A stretch of DNA of 36,255 nt. It comes from Candidatus Thalassarchaeum sp. (GTDB lineage: Archaea > Thermoplasmatota > Poseidoniia > Poseidoniales > Thalassarchaeaceae). A program made the translations under genes and the position numbers. The notes beneath the pieces are model-generated. The model was not told where the DNA came from. It did no database searches and saw only the letters and a list, made by a program, of their open reading frames with translations. The stretch is from assembly GCA_030748335.1 (NCBI GenBank), contig JASMMD010000013.1, positions 1 through 36,255 on the forward strand, read 5' to 3'. Every line of letters starts with the position of its first letter. Position 1 is the first letter of the stretch. Shown piece after piece: positions 12,250 through 26,024 of this stretch.

Positions 12250-13709
<1,460 letters not shown>

Positions 13710-13715
13710 AAATTC

Positions 13716-14549
13716 TCAGCGAACACGCGGCCCGGCTCCCTTACCATCGGGAACGTACCCATGTCCAATATCCTCATCGACCAATTCTTCATGAATATGC
13801 TCGGGGACTTCATCCTCGTGTAGTGACGATAGGAACTTCTTGAGCCTCTCGCTTTTTGGATTGTTGATGATTGAAGAGGGACCTTCCTCCGCAACCATTC
13901 CCTCATCCATGTAGATCACCCGGTCAGCAACATCTCTGGCGAAACCAATCTCGTGGGTGACAATCAGCATCGTCATGCCCTCGTCCGCCAGTCCCCTAAT
14001 GGTCTCGAGGACCGATCCGATTAACTCGGGGTCCAGCGCGCTGGTGGGCTCGTCGAACAGCAGCACTTCGGGACGCATCGCCAGGGCACGCGCTATCGCG
14101 ACCCTCTGCTTCTGGCCACCAGAAAGATTGCCCGGATATGCATCCACCCTGTCCAGCATGTCGACACGCTCGAGCACCGACATTGCCCGCTCCTCGGCTT
14201 CACTCTTACTCATCTTCCTGACATGTCTGAGCCCCAGCGTGATGTTGTCCAATACCCTCAGGTGGGCGAATAGCTCGAAGGACTGGAAAACCATCCCTAT
14301 CCTAGACCTCAGGTTGTTCACGTCCGTGTGAGGGGTGTTAATCTGCTCGCCCTTCAGGTAGATCTCGCCCTCGGTCGGCTCAATCAGTCGGTTTATGCAG
14401 CGCAGAACAGTTGACTTTCCGCTGCCCGAAGAGCCGATGATTGCCACCGACTCGCCTTGGTTGACTTCGAAGGATATGCCCCTGACGGCATGGACCCCGC
14501 CAGAGTAGATCATGTGCAGATCGTCTACGTCCAACACCTTGTCCGGCAA
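13716..14549 (-). CDS. Amino-acid ABC transporter ATP-binding protein (GlnQ/HisP type)
   Basis: The nucleotide-binding subunit, 277 residues, that powers the neighbouring permease at the inner face of the membrane. All ABC motifs are present: Walker [10 protein letters not shown] (39-47), Q-loop Q89 in [10 protein letters not shown], signature LSGGQ (142-146), Walker B LLFDEP (163-168) and H-loop H199. The subfamily pattern [16 protein letters not shown] is typical of polar amino-acid importers. The start is a TTG at 14549 immediately after the permease stop (TGA TTG), with a GGGGGTGA ribosome-binding site inside the permease's last codons, so translation is coupled. The last ~35 residues form an acidic then basic tail ([12 protein letters not shown]...) beyond the usual family end. 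The gene is convergent with gdhA at a 6-bp distance. Confidence 0.95.
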
Positions 14550-16736
14550 TCAATCACCCCCTGTCATCCCCAATCCCGGTATTCTGGTCTTCTCTTCCAT
14601 CCACCTGAGGAACAGTGCTAGCGTCCAAGTGACCACGAAGTATGATATCAGGACCATCCCCCAAGCGTATGCATACTGGAATGTACTGGCAACTATCAAC
14701 TTCCCCTGCCTAGTGAGCTCAGCGTACCCAATAATCATCGCGAGCGAAGAGTTGAGGACCAAGTTGACCATCTCGTTACCCATCGGAGGGATGCAGATTC
14801 TAATCGCCTGCGGCATTATCACCCTGCGCATGGTCTGCAGGTAAGTCAGGCCAACGCTCCTGCCGGCCTCCATCTGGGCCGAAGGTATGGCTTGGATTGC
14901 ACCTCTGATAGTCTCACACTGGTACGCCCCGGAATTGAATCCGAGGGCGCAGATGGCGCTGATGAACGCTGAGTCGTATAGCAGCCCGCCAATCAGCGTG
15001 CCATAATTGTCCTCGGAGTGGTCGTATGTGGCGAAGATGTCCGTGATGAAGTTGTGATCCTGCTCCAGTTTGTCGAAGCTGAAGATCTCCAAACCCGGAT
15101 CTTGGATTAGGGCGCCCAGTCGGAGTCCGAAGTGGATGAACAGGAATTGCACAATCAGCGGGGTGTTACGGAAGAAGTCAGTGTACACGGTTGCAATGGT
15201 GTTCAGAGGCCTGACTCTCCAAGGATTCAATTTGAATGACCTTATCTTGACTTTGGAGAACTTGCCGTTGTTACTAACGAAAAGCAGCCCTAGGAATGTC
15301 AGGGCAATTCCCAAGAGTATCCTAGCGAAGGACTCGGGTGCGCCTACTGGGAGGAAAATGTACTCGATTCCTTGCAGGCCGAGATCCCTAGTGCCGGGTA
15401 TGGCCGAGTTGAACAGGTAGAAGGCAATCGCCAGTATCGGAACCCCGGCAATCCTAACATGCCTAGGATTGAAGCGCTCGACGAGGTACCTCAGAGACGT
15501 AGGAGATGTCTTGCACATCGCTAGGGTCACTCCTAGGAAGAATCCGAGAATTATGCCGAAAGCGACAATCTTCACTGTTGCAATGAATCCTTCTAGAAAC
15601 ATCACCTTGGTCTCATCGACGAATACGCCAAAGTTGCTGTATTCGGGTACTACGAAACCGACTTGGTCGTCCACTCCGGCATCTTCGGTCCACAGTATCG
15701 CACCACCGTCCCCCACGGCAATTCCAATGAAACCGGTCAGCATCTGTATGTGATTGAAGTCCGATTCGTTGCCCAACGGGTTGATCTGCTGTGAGACTAT
15801 GGTTCCCCCGTTGGTGCTTATCGAGAGGTACCCGCCTGCCCCGGTCATCATCAGCTTGGTTGTGGTGACCACCTCAATCGATGTGAGCTCGACATCGAGA
15901 TCGGAGGGATTCAGGACGTACTCGTTGCTGGCAGGCGGATAGTGCCTCTCAAATTCGATTAGAGTCCAGAGGTAGCCAACCTCGGTCCCTGATACGACAT
16001 TGCTCATCGACATGAGAATCCGACCGTCACCGGTAATCGCGTAAATCCTGACGGGGCTGTAGAACTCAACCGCGACGATTTCCGCCCCGCTCGTCTCTTC
16101 AGGGGGTTCGCGGTAGTCCCAAGTCGCACCTCCATCGTCGGAGAACAGGATGGTTCCATTCGCCCCAACGATGACCCCTAACTCATCATCGTAGAACGAA
16201 ACCGCCATCAAATCGGATTCTATCGATAGTGAAACACTCTCCCATCCTCCGTTTTCGTATCTGGAGATGGCCCCTCCGTCCCCGACAACGACGACGCTCT
16301 GGCTACCGGTCAAAGAGACTCCATTCACCTGAGAGCCTTCTGGCAGGGAGATATCCAGCCAATCCGAATCTTGGTCCTGCTTAAGGAGCACCAGTCCGGA
16401 ATCCCCGGCGACCAAAAGTGCACCGAATCCCGTTTCGGAGTGGTGAATGTCGACTATAGTGGGCGACTCTGCAACCTCCCAAGTCAATCCGCTATCACTG
16501 CTGTTGAGCATCACCCCCCCGGTACCGAACGCCCACACCTGGTCACCGAAATCAACAGCGGTGAGAAGGTTCTCCGAAGTACCGCTCTCTACAATCTCCC
16601 AACTACTCTGAAACTCCTTGGCTTGACTCGGCGAGACGAGGGTGACAAGCACAATCAATGAGGCGATGGCAATTATTCGGCTAACTTTGGGTGCCATAGG
16701 TCTCGTTGACCTAGAAACCTGCTTTTGCATGGCCAT
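14550..16736 (-). CDS. Amino-acid ABC permease fused to Asp-box/YCF48-like beta-propeller
   Basis: A protein of about 728 residues from the ATG at 16736; a GTG at 16742 is equally possible and an ATG at 16697 would begin directly at the signal sequence. A hydrophobic segment (IIAIASLIVLVTLVSPSQA) is followed by ~310 residues of beta-propeller with Asp-box motifs (SSDSGLTW, SDDGGATW) and VVGDGGAI/AVGDGGAI blades, as in HCF136/YCF48-like and BNR proteins. From about residue 370 it is a GlnP/HisM-type permease: TM segment FIATVKIVAFGIILGFFLG, YTDFFRNTPLIVQFLFIHFGL, and the coupling EAA loop ETIRGAIQAIPSAQMEAGRS...PQAIRICIPPMGNEM. A ~130-residue stretch between the first TM and the FRNTPL helix adds extra hydrophobic segments, as in AapQ/BztB-like permeases. 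The propeller would sit outside the membrane, where it could contact the binding protein. Confidence 0.92.
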   Translation of the reverse strand: MAMQKQVSRSTRPMAPKVSRIIAIASLIVLVTLVSPSQAKEFQSSWEIVESGTSENLLTAVDFGDQVWAFGTGGVMLNSSDSGLTWEVAESPTIVDIHHSETGFGALLVAGDSGLVLLKQDQDSDWLDISLPEGSQVNGVSLTGSQSVVVVGDGGAISRYENGGWESVSLSIESDLMAVSFYDDELGVIVGANGTILFSDDGGATWDYREPPEETSGAEIVAVEFYSPVRIYAITGDGRILMSMSNVVSGTEVGYLWTLIEFERHYPPASNEYVLNPSDLDVELTSIEVVTTTKLMMTGAGGYLSISTNGGTIVSQQINPLGNESDFNHIQMLTGFIGIAVGDGGAILWTEDAGVDDQVGFVVPEYSNFGVFVDETKVMFLEGFIATVKIVAFGIILGFFLGVTLAMCKTSPTSLRYLVERFNPRHVRIAGVPILAIAFYLFNSAIPGTRDLGLQGIEYIFLPVGAPESFARILLGIALTFLGLLFVSNNGKFSKVKIRSFKLNPWRVRPLNTIATVYTDFFRNTPLIVQFLFIHFGLRLGALIQDPGLEIFSFDKLEQDHNFITDIFATYDHSEDNYGTLIGGLLYDSAFISAICALGFNSGAYQCETIRGAIQAIPSAQMEAGRSVGLTYLQTMRRVIMPQAIRICIPPMGNEMVNLVLNSSLAMIIGYAELTRQGKLIVASTFQYAYAWGMVLISYFVVTWTLALFLRWMEEKTRIPGLGMTGGD

Positions 16737-16815
16737 CCCCACTGCCTGAGGCGCCCAGTTGAATATAGTCTAGGCGGACCACCAATTCTAAGTCGGCATC
16801 GCAGCCCCTCGGGCC
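16737..16815. promoter_or_regulatory. Divergent promoter gap of the amino-acid importer
   Basis: A gap of about 79 bp between the permease/ATPase genes (leftward) and the binding-protein gene (rightward). It holds two A/T-rich boxes, GAATATAG (near 16764-16771) and CAATTCTAAG (near 16786-16795). The second lies about 25 bp before the binding-protein ATG and fits a leaderless promoter. Shared control of all three transporter genes is likely but inferred. Confidence 0.4.
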
Positions 16816-17796
16816 ATGAGGTGCATACCGACAGCCCTCTGCCTCGGTGTGCTGCTGCTGACAGCACCCAGCGTCTCGGCAGTAGGAGACGTCCAGTATG
16901 TAGTTGGCACTTCCGAGGAAACGCCCTCCTCGGGTCTGTTAGACCCTCACCAGCACATCACCGAGGTCACTTTCCAAGACTACGACATGGCCATGCGAGA
17001 CCTGATGGTGGGCAAGATTGACTTCTTTCTGACCACCCACTCCATCGCGGCCGACCCGGAGAACTCCGAGAACACCCCGGGCCTGTCCATCATCGGCATG
17101 GTGGAGGCAATCGAGTCTTACGTCCCGGTCGTACGGCCCGACTCTCAAAGCGTCATCGGGAGCATGGAACTACTCGACGCCATGAACGCCGCACTGGGGG
17201 AGCTGATCTCGTCCAATTCTCTGTCTGCCACATACATGACTTGGTTCATCGGGGAGTCGGAGATGGACGCATCCTCATTCGAGGGGAGCATCGGCGAGTG
17301 GCCTACTCCGACCGAGGGAGGCGTACTCGACTCGATTGTCGATAACCAGAGGGAGATGGTCGCTTGCATGTATGATCGGGACTCACCCATGTCCTGGCAG
17401 GACGCCTCCGCCAAGATGAACGGCTACGAGGCGGAAGTTGCTCAGATGATGGCGAACCGAATGGGGGCTCACTACGGGACACAGATAACCTTCAGAGGTC
17501 ATGACAGCGGTGGCGAGTTCGAAGCTATCGAGGACCTGAAGAGAGGGGACACTTGCGATTTCATCATGGCCTCCATAACCCCTCAGAAGGCCATGTCGAA
17601 GGGACTCATGGGAGGAATTCCGTATCACATCGAGGGATATGTGCTGATGGCATCCTTGGAGTCCCCTACCTTGCAGTCAGCACAGCATCTCTTTCTCTTG
17701 GCAGATGAGGGTGAGGGCAGTGAGTTCGATCAGCGATGGATTGCGATTACCTTCCTCTCAGCATTCATCGTATACCAGCTGGTCCGCAGGCAATGA
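16816..17796 (+). CDS. Amino-acid substrate-binding protein with swapped lobe order, tail-anchored
   Basis: A 326-residue extracytoplasmic protein, probably the solute-binding partner of the adjacent importer. Residues 1-22 form a signal peptide ending SVSA. Residues ~25-150 resemble the second half of family-3 binding proteins: YVVGTSEET, FQDYDMAMRDLMVGKIDFFLT, MVEAIESYVPVV, then MNAALGELISS...TYMTWFIG, which normally ends such proteins. Residues ~170-280 resemble the first half: GVLDSIVDNQRE, NGYEAEVAQMMANRMGA, EAIEDLKRGDTCDFIMASIT, IPYHIEGYVLM. The usual order is therefore reversed, as in a circular permutation. A C-terminal hydrophobic helix (WIAITFLSAFIVYQLVRRQ, 308-326) would anchor it in the membrane. 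It is divergent from the permease by 79 bp. Substrate is unknown. Confidence 0.8.
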   Translation: MRCIPTALCLGVLLLTAPSVSAVGDVQYVVGTSEETPSSGLLDPHQHITEVTFQDYDMAMRDLMVGKIDFFLTTHSIAADPENSENTPGLSIIGMVEAIESYVPVVRPDSQSVIGSMELLDAMNAALGELISSNSLSATYMTWFIGESEMDASSFEGSIGEWPTPTEGGVLDSIVDNQREMVACMYDRDSPMSWQDASAKMNGYEAEVAQMMANRMGAHYGTQITFRGHDSGGEFEAIEDLKRGDTCDFIMASITPQKAMSKGLMGGIPYHIEGYVLMASLESPTLQSAQHLFLLADEGEGSEFDQRWIAITFLSAFIVYQLVRRQ

Positions 17797-20402: not shown

Positions 20403-23400
20403 TCAGTCCCGCATCAACCGCTTCAACCTAGCTTCGAAGTCATCCTCGTCAGGGCTTTCCGATTCAGGCTCTGGCGTCCGTGCCTCTTCCTCCTCATCCG
20501 GAACTCCCTCTTCCTCTTCCTCCTCAACGACTTCCCTAGCGACCTTCTGCTCGACCATCTTCTCCTCTGCAGCGGCCATGGCCATCTCCATCAGCTCCTT
20601 ACCCTCTCGGTAGTTCTTCACCATCCATGCCAGAGCCACGGACACCCCGATGACCAACAAAGCCGCGGCTAGAGAGGTCCCCATGTCGTTGTACTTGCTC
20701 GGATCTGTCTGACCTCCTGAGAGGATTATCCTGCTCTCATCATCACTCGGGTCCGAATCGACGTCCCATGGGAAGGCACAGTCAATGGTCACCACGACCT
20801 CGTCCCCGTCCTCGGCTGACCCTGGGCGATCCACCCCTACGGTCGGGGAGAATGTTCCAGTCAGGTCGACGCGATGTGTCATCGAGTGGTCTCCGGATAC
20901 CACGCTGAGGGTGCAATCGGCATTGTACTGGTCGAGCATGGCCCCGACCCCGTCTCCACGCTTCGTCAATACTCTAATCTGCTGCTCGGTACCCTCGCCA
21001 TCGAGCTCCAAGCCGACCAGACCGATGTTCCAGTCGGTCCTGCGGACTTCGAAGGCACCATCGGCAGTCGCGACCTCGACCCCACGTCCATCAAGCAGCC
21101 TCAAGGTCAGGCCCCTCATGCCCGGTTCGGGACTCCAAGACTCTGCACTGAGGTTGATAGGTCCGATGCTCGAACCCCCGGCGACGCTGCCGGAGAATGA
21201 GTCTAGCATCACCCCCTGGTCATCAACCAACAGGACGGTGAACGAGAATGAATCGGAGCCGTTGAGCACGGAGCACTGTGCTACCACCGCTGAAGACTCT
21301 CCTTGGATGCTGCAGTCGGCGCCCCTCAAGGAAGGCTGCGTGGCATGAGTATAGTACGATAGTGTCGAGCCACTCACACTGAGGGAACCATCACCGCTCG
21401 ACATCGCTGGTAGGGACCAGCCCCCACTATCGTGCCAGTCAAGCTGCTGCCCTGAGGCTGAGTTGATGACCGAACTAGATGCATCCGTGCCATGAATTCT
21501 CACTATCGCATGGTCACCGGACATCGCCACAACAATTGGGGAGGAGGCCCACGAGTATGCCGACTGTTCGGTGTCCAGCGAGACCTCACGCTGGTTCCCA
21601 GCCGAGTCCTCGGCTAGGATTCTGATGGTCTGCACGCTGCCGTCCCAGTCTGAGGCAGGAATCACCTCGATGGGAACGCCCCTAATCTCGCCGACCCCTA
21701 GGACCACGTCCGTATCTTCTGACACGGTCCAGCCGACTGGCAGACTCAGGACCTGTAGGCTAATCGTGGTGGGTGCGTTGCCGAGGTTGTGCAATTCGGC
21801 TAGGGGGCGGCCACCCTGATCGGAGACTAGCCAATCACCATGGGAACTCATGTTGAATTCGTGTAATACTGCCACCCTCAGTGGGAGGGTGATTTCCGTC
21901 AGCCCGTTGCCGTCGCCTTCGCGCAGCCTGACGTGCAGTTCGACGGCCCTGCCGTGCTGGGCCGTTTCCGGTGGGGTGATGTTGAGGATCATCGGAGCGA
22001 CCTCCCCGGGAGATAGCACCGGCAACTCGTCAGGAACTTCGACCCCCCATCCTCCTTCTCCGCTGACCCAGACGGTGGCGTACGGCTCAGAGGGCGAATT
22101 CCCTAGCTGGATTACGTCGAGGGCGACGCTTGAACCCTCGGGTCCGACCTCAAGGTTGGCTTGATCCGCTACGACTGACCAACCCGGGACATGTAAGGCC
22201 TCGACATAGAAACTGAAGTTCCCCATCGCCTCGCCCTGAGCCTCTGCAGTGACGCTGACCGACATCACCGAGCCGTTCCAAGCACCCTCCGGTATTGAGG
22301 CTTGAACGGTCATCAGGGCGGATTGGTTGACCTCAATCCCGGAGACTGAGTCTCCGCTCGCGGTCCAGTTCTGAGATGAGTCGCCATCTACCGACAAGAC
22401 GCTGTAGGAAATTATGAGCTCCAGCCCATCGATCAGATTACCCACGTTGGTGGCGTTGACGTCTATGGAGAGTCCCTCCCCCGGGGCTATTGCAAAAGTC
22501 CTGCCGTTGGCTTCGGAACCAGCCATCGCAGCCGCCAGTTCCCAGCGGTGGTCCTGACGGGCCTCCAGCGAAACCGAGTCGGAATCGCTGACCGTCTGGT
22601 CTCCCACCGAGGTCATGCGGAACATCACGTCTAGAGGAGTCCCCGCAGGGGTGTTCGCAGGAAGAATCACCGTCACGGGGATGTTAGTCAGACTTCCTGC
22701 CCCGAGGGACACCATGTCATTGGAGAACGAGACGCTAAGACCCGGGTCCTCTGTAACATTCTCGTTTAGAACGACCTCGTGACTGAGCCGATAGGTGTCC
22801 TGCCCATTGCCCTGGTTCTCCAGCCGCACCATCACCAAAGCCTCCTCGCCGACTTCGACGATGTGGGGCTGCTCAGTCGGCGATGTCACGACAATTGAAG
22901 CCCTGTGAATCTGTAGGACCTCAAGTGACAATGTTATGACATAATCAGACGACTGGTCACTGGCATCGGAGAATGAATGGAATGCAGGAGGGGCATCACT
23001 AGGGAGGTTGAGAGTCAGAGTGCCACTGGCCTGCTCCGGCCAAGAGGCTCCCGACATTACAATCGAATCTCCTACTATTGACAAATCACCCGAGGCACTC
23101 CATGACCATCCTTGGATTACCATTCCTGCGTCCGACAACGACCAAGTCAACTGACTGCCCGCTGAGGGCATGTCCGCCCGAACCTCCCAATGCAGGCCGC
23201 TGGCAGGGACGCTGCGTTGATGCACGCCCACGACGACACCGGCAGCCTCGAAGGTGAGCGAGATCGTCTGACACGACTGCTCCTCGCCGCTGCCCACGCA
23301 CATCGTCAACGGCGTGCTGACGGACTCGCCGAGAGTCGCATCCGCCGGGACCTCAAGTCTCGCGGTGAGTAGCAAGAACTCATTTGGCTCCAGCGACAGT

Positions 23401-26024
23401 GCCGGCTGCTCGACGCCATCCATGTCGTACAGCCTCAGCTCCGAGCCCGTACGGTCGTCCCAGGATGTGCTGTCCCATGAAATTGTAATCTGGTTCTCGA
23501 CCGCGTTCCCGAGGTTGTGCAGGAGCATCCAAGCTTGAGCATCGGTACCCAACAGACCGTAGCCGGTACTCGATACCGTTCCATCAGGGCCGCGCAGAGA
23601 TAGGCCCCGCGTCCGATTCGCCTCCACCGGAAGCGAGGCGGACACGCTGACGTTGCCGGGGTCTTCATCTAGGCTCAGTGTCAGACCTAGGTGACCTGCA
23701 TCCGAACCCAGAGCGTTAGCAGGGGCATGAATCCGTAACTCTGGGGTCCAAACCGCATCGACGCCTATAGCGACGCCCGTCAGACCTCCCGGGGTCTCGT
23801 CCGACCAACTCCATCCCTCTGGAAGACTGGAGTCGTCGACCGTCAGGCTCCAAGCCCCCGAGAGCCTACCGGTCGAGCGAATGTTGGGGGTGGCCAGTGT
23901 GGTATCTCCCGGAGTCACCCTGATTGGCTCTGTGGGCATCTCAAAGGTGGCGTTGTAGGGTGCCACGATGGACAGGGTCGTTATCTGTGCGTCGTTGTCA
24001 AGTCTGGATTGGGAGACGTTGGAGTAGGGGTCGAGGACCAGCTCAAAGACATGCTCGCCTAGAGGACCACTCCACTCGACGCTGAACGACTCGAACGAGC
24101 CCGAGCCAGTCGGGTCCACCGGCTCCAAGGTGCCCGCTTCGTGACTCGCGATTATCTGCCCGTTGGCGTACAGTTTGGCCTCAGTCTCGTGGTCGGTGTC
24201 TGCAGTCCCTGAGTTCTCGAACAAGGCGGTCACGGTGACAATCTCTCCGGGATCGGGCTCGCTGGGACTGAACTCAATGCTCCTCTGGTCCAAAAGAGGC
24301 CTGACGTCCGCCAAGGCGTGTGACACCACGGTGTCGCCAAGGACGACGTCAAGCATCGCGTCCCCATCGACGTCAGCTAGGGCGGGAGCCGACCAGGTCC
24401 TATGTGACAACTCGACCGGGCCGCCCCAGACGGACGTCGTAGAACCGTCTTCGCCATCGAGGGCCCATAGCGAGCGCCCGTATGCGACCAGCAGCTCCTG
24501 CTCCCCACTGCCATCGATATCCATCCAAGTCGGCGGCGCCACTGCAATCTCGTCGTTTGGCAGACCACTACTCTGCTCGAGACTCCTCTGCCAGACCTGA
24601 TCGGGACTGGAACCACTCACGTCGTGGCAGCCAGCATGCCCGTGCCTAGCTCCGGTGGTCTCCTGCGACCAAGTCACCCAGCACACCCTGTCGTGCTGAC
24701 CGTCGCCGTCAGTGTCTATCGCGACAGGGGGTGCGTCAGCGTACCCGTTGGAGGCCTCAAAGGTCCAGACCTCGTCGCCGCTACCAATCTCCATGCCGAC
24801 GAACTCGGCACCGTCCTGTCCGCTGGAGCCATCCCAATCAGTGGGAATCGTTAGAATCATCTCGAGATCATTCTGGTTCGCATCAAGGTTGGCGATGATT
24901 GGGCCAGGCAGCCGGACATGGGGGGAGTTTGTGTCGCCATCGGTATTGCCCAGCGTCAGCCCGTCCCAGTTGGAGTCTCCCGTGTCCGAGTCCAGTTTCC
25001 AGACCCACACCGCCCCACTGCTCTCCTGAGTGGTCGTTAGAAGCACGTATCCCGTACTCTCGTCGGTCTGGGCGAAAGCCGGGTCCGAGGGATGGCTACC
25101 CTTGTCGAGAGATGCGTCCCATAGTAGGCTCGCCCCCGTATCAGACAGCCCTAGGGCGACGACGACGGGGTCCTCGGAGACCTCATCTACGGCGGCTATG
25201 ACCAATTCCGCGTCACCATCGAGGTCGAGATCAGCCAGTAGCGGCTGAGCGGTCGGCCTGTGACCGCCAAGAAGGCTGGAGGTGTAAGGCCCCTGATCGC
25301 TACTAATCATCATGGATTCGTCGCTCCAAGTCCACAGCAACTGGCTTGAGTCTCCAGAAGTGGACCAGCCGGTTACCGAACAGGACAACCGAGGCGACCA
25401 GGCATCTACGTACAATGTTCCGGAAGCGTCGTAAGCGACCAGCACCTCTTGGATTCCGTCACCGTCTACATCCACTACCAACGGAGCAGCCTTGACGTAC
25501 TCGGTCAGCCCCATGTCCACCTCCCATGCTAGATCGGCGTCCTCGCCCTCGACTATTCGCAGGTAGGTATGGTCCGAATTCTCATCAGTCTGCATCAGAA
25601 TTGTGTAGAACGAGCTGCCCCCACAACGCTCAGAAGAACCCTCGTCCTTGGTCACTGAAGCAGAGAGATCTGCAACTGGTGTGGCCAACGCGTCGGTGCC
25701 GATTGAGTAGGAGCCATACATCCAGTTCACCGCGGGATCGACCACTGATCTGAGTTCAGCCGCATCGGACGGAGTGCCGTTCCCAGCGCCTCCGTCGGGG
25801 CCATGAGTGGGAACGTCAGCCATCCTGTCAGGCGTCCTGCCGGACTGCGGCCATGGCTGGCCACCATCGGTCCATGGATCCGAGGTCCCGTCGCCGACCT
25901 CCATCTTGGCCGTAGGGTCGAGGTGGACCAGGGCTGGTGACAGCGACATCAGCAGTAATAGGGCGACCCCGAGAGCCGCTTGACGGAGGCGAGAGGGGCG
26001 AATGTTCTGGGTGCACACCGTCAT
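20403..26024 (-). CDS. Giant secreted FG-GAP/CARDB-type surface protein with C-terminal anchor
   Basis: An 1873-residue protein. The N terminus RQAALGVALLLLMSLSPALVHL is a signal peptide. Residues ~170-580 contain FG-GAP/VCBS blades with calcium-loop-like motifs (DVDGDGIQEVLVAY, DLDLDGDAELVIAA, DTDGDGQHD, DIDGSGEQELLVAY, DVDGDAMLDVVLG), predicting an integrin-like propeller. A CARDB-like beta-sandwich follows (PGEIVTVTALFENSGTADTDHE), then many NEW3/CARDB-like domains with the 'LxNxGN' pattern (LENQGNGQDTYRL, LHNLGNAPTTISL). A transmembrane helix lies near 1782-1802, followed by a 71-residue cytoplasmic tail rich in glutamate. It is likely a cell-surface adhesin or binding protein. The stop codon is directly adjacent to the end of the sulfotransferase-like gene. 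The ATG at 26024 gives the signal peptide a normal n-region. Confidence 0.93.
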   Translation of the reverse strand: MTVCTQNIRPSRLRQAALGVALLLLMSLSPALVHLDPTAKMEVGDGTSDPWTDGGQPWPQSGRTPDRMADVPTHGPDGGAGNGTPSDAAELRSVVDPAVNWMYGSYSIGTDALATPVADLSASVTKDEGSSERCGGSSFYTILMQTDENSDHTYLRIVEGEDADLAWEVDMGLTEYVKAAPLVVDVDGDGIQEVLVAYDASGTLYVDAWSPRLSCSVTGWSTSGDSSQLLWTWSDESMMISSDQGPYTSSLLGGHRPTAQPLLADLDLDGDAELVIAAVDEVSEDPVVVALGLSDTGASLLWDASLDKGSHPSDPAFAQTDESTGYVLLTTTQESSGAVWVWKLDSDTGDSNWDGLTLGNTDGDTNSPHVRLPGPIIANLDANQNDLEMILTIPTDWDGSSGQDGAEFVGMEIGSGDEVWTFEASNGYADAPPVAIDTDGDGQHDRVCWVTWSQETTGARHGHAGCHDVSGSSPDQVWQRSLEQSSGLPNDEIAVAPPTWMDIDGSGEQELLVAYGRSLWALDGEDGSTTSVWGGPVELSHRTWSAPALADVDGDAMLDVVLGDTVVSHALADVRPLLDQRSIEFSPSEPDPGEIVTVTALFENSGTADTDHETEAKLYANGQIIASHEAGTLEPVDPTGSGSFESFSVEWSGPLGEHVFELVLDPYSNVSQSRLDNDAQITTLSIVAPYNATFEMPTEPIRVTPGDTTLATPNIRSTGRLSGAWSLTVDDSSLPEGWSWSDETPGGLTGVAIGVDAVWTPELRIHAPANALGSDAGHLGLTLSLDEDPGNVSVSASLPVEANRTRGLSLRGPDGTVSSTGYGLLGTDAQAWMLLHNLGNAVENQITISWDSTSWDDRTGSELRLYDMDGVEQPALSLEPNEFLLLTARLEVPADATLGESVSTPLTMCVGSGEEQSCQTISLTFEAAGVVVGVHQRSVPASGLHWEVRADMPSAGSQLTWSLSDAGMVIQGWSWSASGDLSIVGDSIVMSGASWPEQASGTLTLNLPSDAPPAFHSFSDASDQSSDYVITLSLEVLQIHRASIVVTSPTEQPHIVEVGEEALVMVRLENQGNGQDTYRLSHEVVLNENVTEDPGLSVSFSNDMVSLGAGSLTNIPVTVILPANTPAGTPLDVMFRMTSVGDQTVSDSDSVSLEARQDHRWELAAAMAGSEANGRTFAIAPGEGLSIDVNATNVGNLIDGLELIISYSVLSVDGDSSQNWTASGDSVSGIEVNQSALMTVQASIPEGAWNGSVMSVSVTAEAQGEAMGNFSFYVEALHVPGWSVVADQANLEVGPEGSSVALDVIQLGNSPSEPYATVWVSGEGGWGVEVPDELPVLSPGEVAPMILNITPPETAQHGRAVELHVRLREGDGNGLTEITLPLRVAVLHEFNMSSHGDWLVSDQGGRPLAELHNLGNAPTTISLQVLSLPVGWTVSEDTDVVLGVGEIRGVPIEVIPASDWDGSVQTIRILAEDSAGNQREVSLDTEQSAYSWASSPIVVAMSGDHAIVRIHGTDASSSVINSASGQQLDWHDSGGWSLPAMSSGDGSLSVSGSTLSYYTHATQPSLRGADCSIQGESSAVVAQCSVLNGSDSFSFTVLLVDDQGVMLDSFSGSVAGGSSIGPINLSAESWSPEPGMRGLTLRLLDGRGVEVATADGAFEVRRTDWNIGLVGLELDGEGTEQQIRVLTKRGDGVGAMLDQYNADCTLSVVSGDHSMTHRVDLTGTFSPTVGVDRPGSAEDGDEVVVTIDCAFPWDVDSDPSDDESRIILSGGQTDPSKYNDMGTSLAAALLVIGVSVALAWMVKNYREGKELMEMAMAAAEEKMVEQKVAREVVEEEEEEGVPDEEEEARTPEPESESPDEDDFEARLKRLMRD

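Follow-up and report, generated by a model that had tools for sequence, protein, structure and literature searches.

The gene at positions 16816–17796 of the forward strand, in the 36,255-nucleotide stretch of Candidatus Thalassarchaeum DNA analysed here (the window), raises the question of whether a two-lobed substrate-binding protein (SBP) can carry its halves in reverse order and, if so, how that order arose and what the protein now does. The window belongs to a genome bin of 1.16 Mb, 80.6% complete; the family, Thalassarchaeaceae, is marine group IIb of Poseidoniales. A preliminary description of the locus had proposed a circularly permuted SBP with a signal peptide at its start and a helix at its end, and every stretch that it quoted is indeed present, in the order given, in the 326-residue reading frame. 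A Sec-type signal peptide, recognised from the sequence, occupies residues 1–22 (ending in SVSA; 16816–16881). It is followed by lobe 2 with the original C terminus (residues 28–146; 16897–17253), a linker of about 35 residues joining the old C terminus to the old N terminus (GESEMDASSFEGSIGEWPTPTEGGVLDSIVDNQRE; 17254–17355), lobe 1, that is, the original N-terminal half (residues 181–295; 17356–17700), and a hydrophobic tail. The hydrophobic N terminus is kept across the orthologues, and neither they nor the window protein have the cysteine of an archaeal lipobox near the cleavage site. At the C terminus lies a short hydrophobic helix, RWIAITFLSAFIVYQLVRRQ, closed by a pair of arginines (17737–17784); the pattern FD.RWIAI...RR is retained among the orthologues, a low-confidence AlphaFold model places a helix at residues 295–325, and the segment may serve as a membrane anchor or a sorting signal.

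The swapped order is carried by several comparisons. Membership of the family is clear, the Pfam model SBP_bac_3 (PF00497) scoring 38.2 bits against a cut-off of 26.4, and the two matching pieces lie in the wrong sequence: residues ~103–144 correspond to profile positions of about 86–130, and residues 185–283 to positions 5–94. A profile built from normal proteins of the phylum (the ordinary-SBP profile) matched with its positions 125–219 and then 13–41. A ten-member family profile compared with AncQR (4zv1) extended lobe 1 to AncQR position 118, placing query positions 42–144 on 135–231 and 191–295 on 22–118 (E 1.5e-14), and a search of the PDB with the single sequence gave the swapped order too. 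A doubled-profile test gained nothing over the single profile, as HMMER still broke the match at the linker. The collinear succession of lobe 1, hinge, lobe 2 and C terminus is absent, and each segment is found once, rotated, with the old termini joined. That the protein is an ordinary family-3 SBP in normal order, its halves merely misread by eye, we regard as practically out of the question, since every profile and PDB comparison contradicts it. A frameshift or an assembly chimera was likewise rejected, the same order being found in more than 20 genomes. At the level of sequence comparison, the gene product is confirmed as a circularly permuted family-3 SBP (SBP_bac_3/GlnH-like).

Orthologues from another order of the same class (f3, probably marine group III) show the arrangement at its most complete. 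Six genomes carry a version of 317–322 residues, one of them truncated, consisting of a signal peptide, lobe 2, a linker, lobe 1 and a short hydrophobic tail, and the PF00497 score of such an orthologue reaches 91 bits. One of them, P0004, matches the ordinary-SBP profile at 109–215 and then at 2–109, with essentially no gap or overlap, and AncQR at 120–233 and 10–116, again swapped. The cut thus falls between AncQR 116 and 120, at the boundary of the two lobes, where the preliminary description had expected the termini to have moved. Judged by these alignments, P0004 is a complete permutation. The families of the window's branch (f1) and of f3 are collinear over their whole length (hhalign, 300 columns, E 3.2e-18), and the orthologue in G032 likewise gives a collinear match over 10–312 (E 4e-20). 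The tail of the f3 orthologue at L183:1438-2466, LPGLSLLVSAGALGAIALRRRH, resembles a sorting signal of the C-terminal kind; its match to the MYXO-CTERM model stays below the cut-off.

From the sequence, such a chain would close into the usual two-lobed clamshell. Structure prediction contributed little: two AlphaFold predictions, each from nine sequences, were of low confidence (pLDDT 48.4 and 38.4, pTM 0.35 and 0.30), and the first of these models shows its strands and helices in the succession expected of lobe 2 and then lobe 1, which is weak evidence. Foldseek returned mostly type II binding folds for this poor model, at a TM score of ~0.25 that is not meaningful at such confidence. The want of a confident fold leaves some room for another reading, in which two truncated SBP halves, the remains of a tandem, have been fused and act as a domain-swapped dimer or as two separate single lobes. 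The chain does resemble the middle of a tandem protein, residues 30–283 of P0004 giving one continuous match to positions 112–341 of the SBD1–SBD2 protein 6h30. We nevertheless hold this reading to be unlikely. The pieces in P0004 sum to exactly one domain, the halves of the f3 proteins being precisely complementary; these proteins retain the ligand contacts of both lobes, expected only with one shared cleft; and a linker of ~30–35 residues is long enough to span the termini. Neither a collinear order nor two separate truncated copies, two of the outcomes that the preliminary description had named as speaking against it, was encountered.

Ca. Thalassarchaeum and some of its relatives in Thalassarchaeaceae have conserved the permuted protein. 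It was found in 10 of the 13 sampled Ca. Thalassarchaeum genomes, the same search giving one more from another genus, and further copies are present in G060, G067, G090, G353, G399 and G412; no relatives were seen among viral contigs. The arrangement is the same in 16 full-length f1 orthologues (33–92% identity in the first set) and in the six from the other order, including the truncated one. In seven close pairs, dN/dS ranged from 0.05 to 0.26, with constraint over the whole length, which indicates purifying selection and a gene that is presumably functional.

The neighbourhood suggests a candidate transporter for the protein. Divergently from the permuted gene, on the reverse strand, lies a gene (14550–16742) for a GlnP/HisQM-type permease (residues ~500–720) with an N-terminal YCF48-like propeller (PF00528 1.6e-18, PF14870 2.9e-16; GlnP model 6.5e-35), followed on the same strand by that for the ATP-binding subunit (13716–14549; PF00005 1.6e-39). 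Such a divergent GlnP-type permease and ATPase, the partners of a polar amino acid (PAAT-type) importer, adjoin the SBP gene in both f1 and f3, the f3 orthologues being divergent from the propeller permease wherever the upstream neighbour was read. On one side, the SBP and importer genes are flanked by a glutamate dehydrogenase gene next to the transporter (12354–13709, forward strand; PF00208 3.7e-91), a neighbour conserved in Thalassarchaeaceae, and on the other side by the gene for SAICAR synthetase. The YCF48-like domain, related to a photosystem II assembly factor, is conserved at the permease N terminus in several Thalassarchaeaceae genera and in f3, and we found no paper describing a GlnP-type permease fused to such a propeller. 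Three genes past the permuted SBP, the reverse strand encodes a surface protein of 1873 residues (20403–26024), in which a signal peptide leads into a long extracellular region and a single membrane helix lies at the C terminus. Taken together, we think it highly probable that the window protein is a permuted family-3 SBP, tethered by its C-terminal helix, and that it would descend from the extracellular subunit of the adjacent, divergently encoded GlnP-type ABC importer with its propeller permease and ATPase.

Whether the protein still binds an amino acid is a different matter, and here the expectation of conserved ligand residues held for part of the family only. In LAO numbering, the positions concerned are Y14, T72, R77, T121 and D161. 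They are kept in the ordinary proteins, in the f3 orthologues and in a second group of permuted proteins fused to LivK-like domains (PbpL, below), the sole exception being a valine for T121 in one PbpL. In the window's branch they are mostly lost: among the 16 f1 proteins, none has the equivalent of R77 (isoleucine, valine or methionine instead) or the aromatic residue at 14 (D, E, Q, G, N or S), only two have D161, and the equivalent of T121 is gone in all or nearly all. The window protein itself lacks the set typical of alpha-amino-acid binding (aromatic 14, R77, T121, D161), and the losses imply a receptor without the standard alpha-amino-acid site. The f3 protein, by contrast, most probably serves the propeller-permease importer as its amino-acid receptor, because both its pocket and its synteny are conserved. 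A cysteine pair in lobe 1, C184 and C247, is invariant in the permuted proteins of f1 and may form a disulfide; it is present also in PbpL and in normal-order copies of the domain and absent from the f3 orthologues.

For the window's branch, a pocket rewritten under purifying selection suggests a protein that has most probably kept its docking on the importer but changed its ligand. What points to a new ligand is only the loss of the known residues together with the constraint; it would be our first choice, and a docking subunit our second. The second would mean that, rather than receiving a substrate, the protein holds the propeller permease as a nonbinding scaffold or regulatory subunit. In its favour, the equivalents of Y14, R77 and T121 have disappeared from all or nearly all of the f1 proteins and that of D161 from 14 of them, Thalassarchaeaceae have other binding proteins (PbpL and an AapJ-like system), and related genera have dropped the SBP gene yet retain the permease and ATPase. 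At 21 loci (genera g4 and g7 and most loci of g9), the permease adjoins the SAICAR synthetase gene with no SBP gene between them and the ATPase kept, which we count against our preferred explanation; in Thalassarchaeaceae, the slot beside the propeller permease holds a rewritten receptor or nothing. We nonetheless consider a scaffold the improbable option, if one to be taken seriously, as purifying selection extends along the whole protein, and the conserved C184, C247, G203, E205 and H219-Y220 could make a putative new cleft.

Clues to the origin of the rotation come from PbpL, as we call the fusion of SBP_bac_3 to LivK-like domains in Thalassarchaeaceae. This protein of ~1050 residues occurs in nearly all members of the family that have any family-3 SBP, and it consists of a lipobox, SBP_bac_3 profile positions 38–131 and then 1–37, and the LivK-like part (Peripla_BP_6); against the ordinary-SBP profile, the match is 44–219 and then 5–36. 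Here the cut runs through lobe 1 and separates helix A from strand 2. Residues 29–214 of P0004 are ~50% identical to PbpL over 185 residues across the junction of the old C and N termini, and the remaining piece of its lobe 1 (residues ~217–287) is located upstream in PbpL. The junction linkers themselves, VVLTDDTDANTADAYP in f3 and VVLTDDTDANTATSYP in the PbpL of G105, are so alike that independent origin is unlikely, and the linker of the window protein can be aligned with both. PbpL genes were located at L007:9356-10579 and L213:5030-8131, and in the two PbpL loci that were read further, the genes that come next encode, by sequence pattern, a fused LivH/M-like permease and two ATPases resembling LivG/F. 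In a variant without the lipobox (L029 and L115; G036:C38), the PbpL sequence comes after a zinc-ribbon-like motif, a transmembrane helix and repeats of the calcium-binding type that are rich in aspartate. The genes aapJ and livK are among the most transcribed of Thalassarchaeaceae (PMC9723583); the livK of that study is probably PbpL, and the AapJ-like binding proteins of the family, ~410 residues long, are in normal order.

A third register is the normal one. SBP_bac_3 domains in normal order, with their ligand positions mostly kept, were found in proteins of 894 residues (G032:C19) and 1219 residues (G427:C3), and their first residues, YPEPSEGSSL or FPTPTEGSSL, are the motif that the permuted proteins show after the junction. 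At L136:3-2684 (reverse strand) and L209:1984-5640, the normal-order domain is inserted in a surface protein with repeats resembling LDL-receptor class A (CDNGEEIPASWENDGEADCYDGSDE); a relative of this repeat protein in L139 gave no PF00497 match. One domain is thus found in three registers, uncut, cut at the hinge between the lobes and cut inside lobe 1, and these, as far as the sequences tell, would be best explained by a tandem ancestor: a head-to-tail array of SBPs, as in the two-domain GlnPQ receptor, from which different frames of one unit each would have been kept. No intact SBP_bac_3 tandem with this linker was seen in the class, and this, too, we count against the preferred explanation. 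The other matches in the phylum sample were in normal order or in tandem arrays, the latter in f17 (G233:C4, G247:C1, G271:C17), with up to three head-to-tail SBP_bac_3 domains per frame of ~1040 residues.

A tree computed in the unpermuted register united all Poseidoniia sequences in one clade separate from the ordinary proteins (100%) and placed the normal-order pair as sister to PbpL (98%). The permuted proteins of f1 have long branches, and the maximum-likelihood tree splits them from those of f3, with support of 62–86% at the key nodes. A joint clade of f1 and f3 was not rejected (AU test, p 0.23), and its absence from the maximum-likelihood tree is a further point that we count against the preferred explanation; a single clade of all permuted forms was rejected (p 0.04). 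Weak as its key nodes are, the tree is compatible with at least two rotation events. On balance, we lean toward the view that a single tandem ancestor gave rise to the domain in all three registers and that in the window's branch it became a subunit of the propeller permease, either without a pocket or with a new ligand.

The usual evidence for a natural circular permutation is a pair of distant structures. With three registers and a shared linker in related organisms, the route through duplication and trimming can be traced by sequence, and the pair of orders, with the pocket kept in one and lost in the other, provides a matched set for probing what replaces the amino acid. It also raises the question of whether termini at the hinge and an anchor at the tail alter the closing of the clamshell and its docking. 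Our search of the literature turned up no permuted family-3 SBP; permuted SBPs are, however, known from other subfamilies. Structure comparison by CPSARST revealed a permuted set of glycine-betaine- and molybdate-binding proteins (PMC2395249); these belong to other subfamilies, with <24% identity among members, and are not known to us to include a third register joined by a common linker. TpMglB-2 of Treponema pallidum, a "Cluster Bc" glucose-binding protein, resembles the window protein in combining a natural circular permutation with a membrane tether, two features that its authors suggest are linked (PMC4990184); it is, however, a lipoprotein with the Type I, cluster B sugar-binding fold and thus of a different SBP class.

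The closest comparisons are within family 3 itself. With its ordinary members (PF00497/TIGR01096: GlnH, HisJ/LAO, AncQR 4zv1), both lobes are homologous, and the f3 orthologues retain R77, D161, T72, T121 and the aromatic residue at 14; here, however, the lobes are swapped, the tail is C-terminal, and most of the ligand residues are gone from the window's branch. In GlnPQ of Lactococcus (6h30; PMC8025302), family-3 SBPs stand head to tail on a permease of the GlnP type, and the permuted f3 protein can be aligned without a break to lobe 2 of SBD1 plus lobe 1 of SBD2; whereas the GlnPQ permease carries both SBPs in full as fused domains, the proteins studied here have the equivalent of one domain, encoded separately, beside a permease with a YCF48 propeller. 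PbpL shares with the window protein a permuted SBP_bac_3 and a homologous junction linker but differs in its cut within lobe 1, its lipobox anchor, its fusion to LivK-like domains, its intact ligand residues and its LIV-type neighbours.
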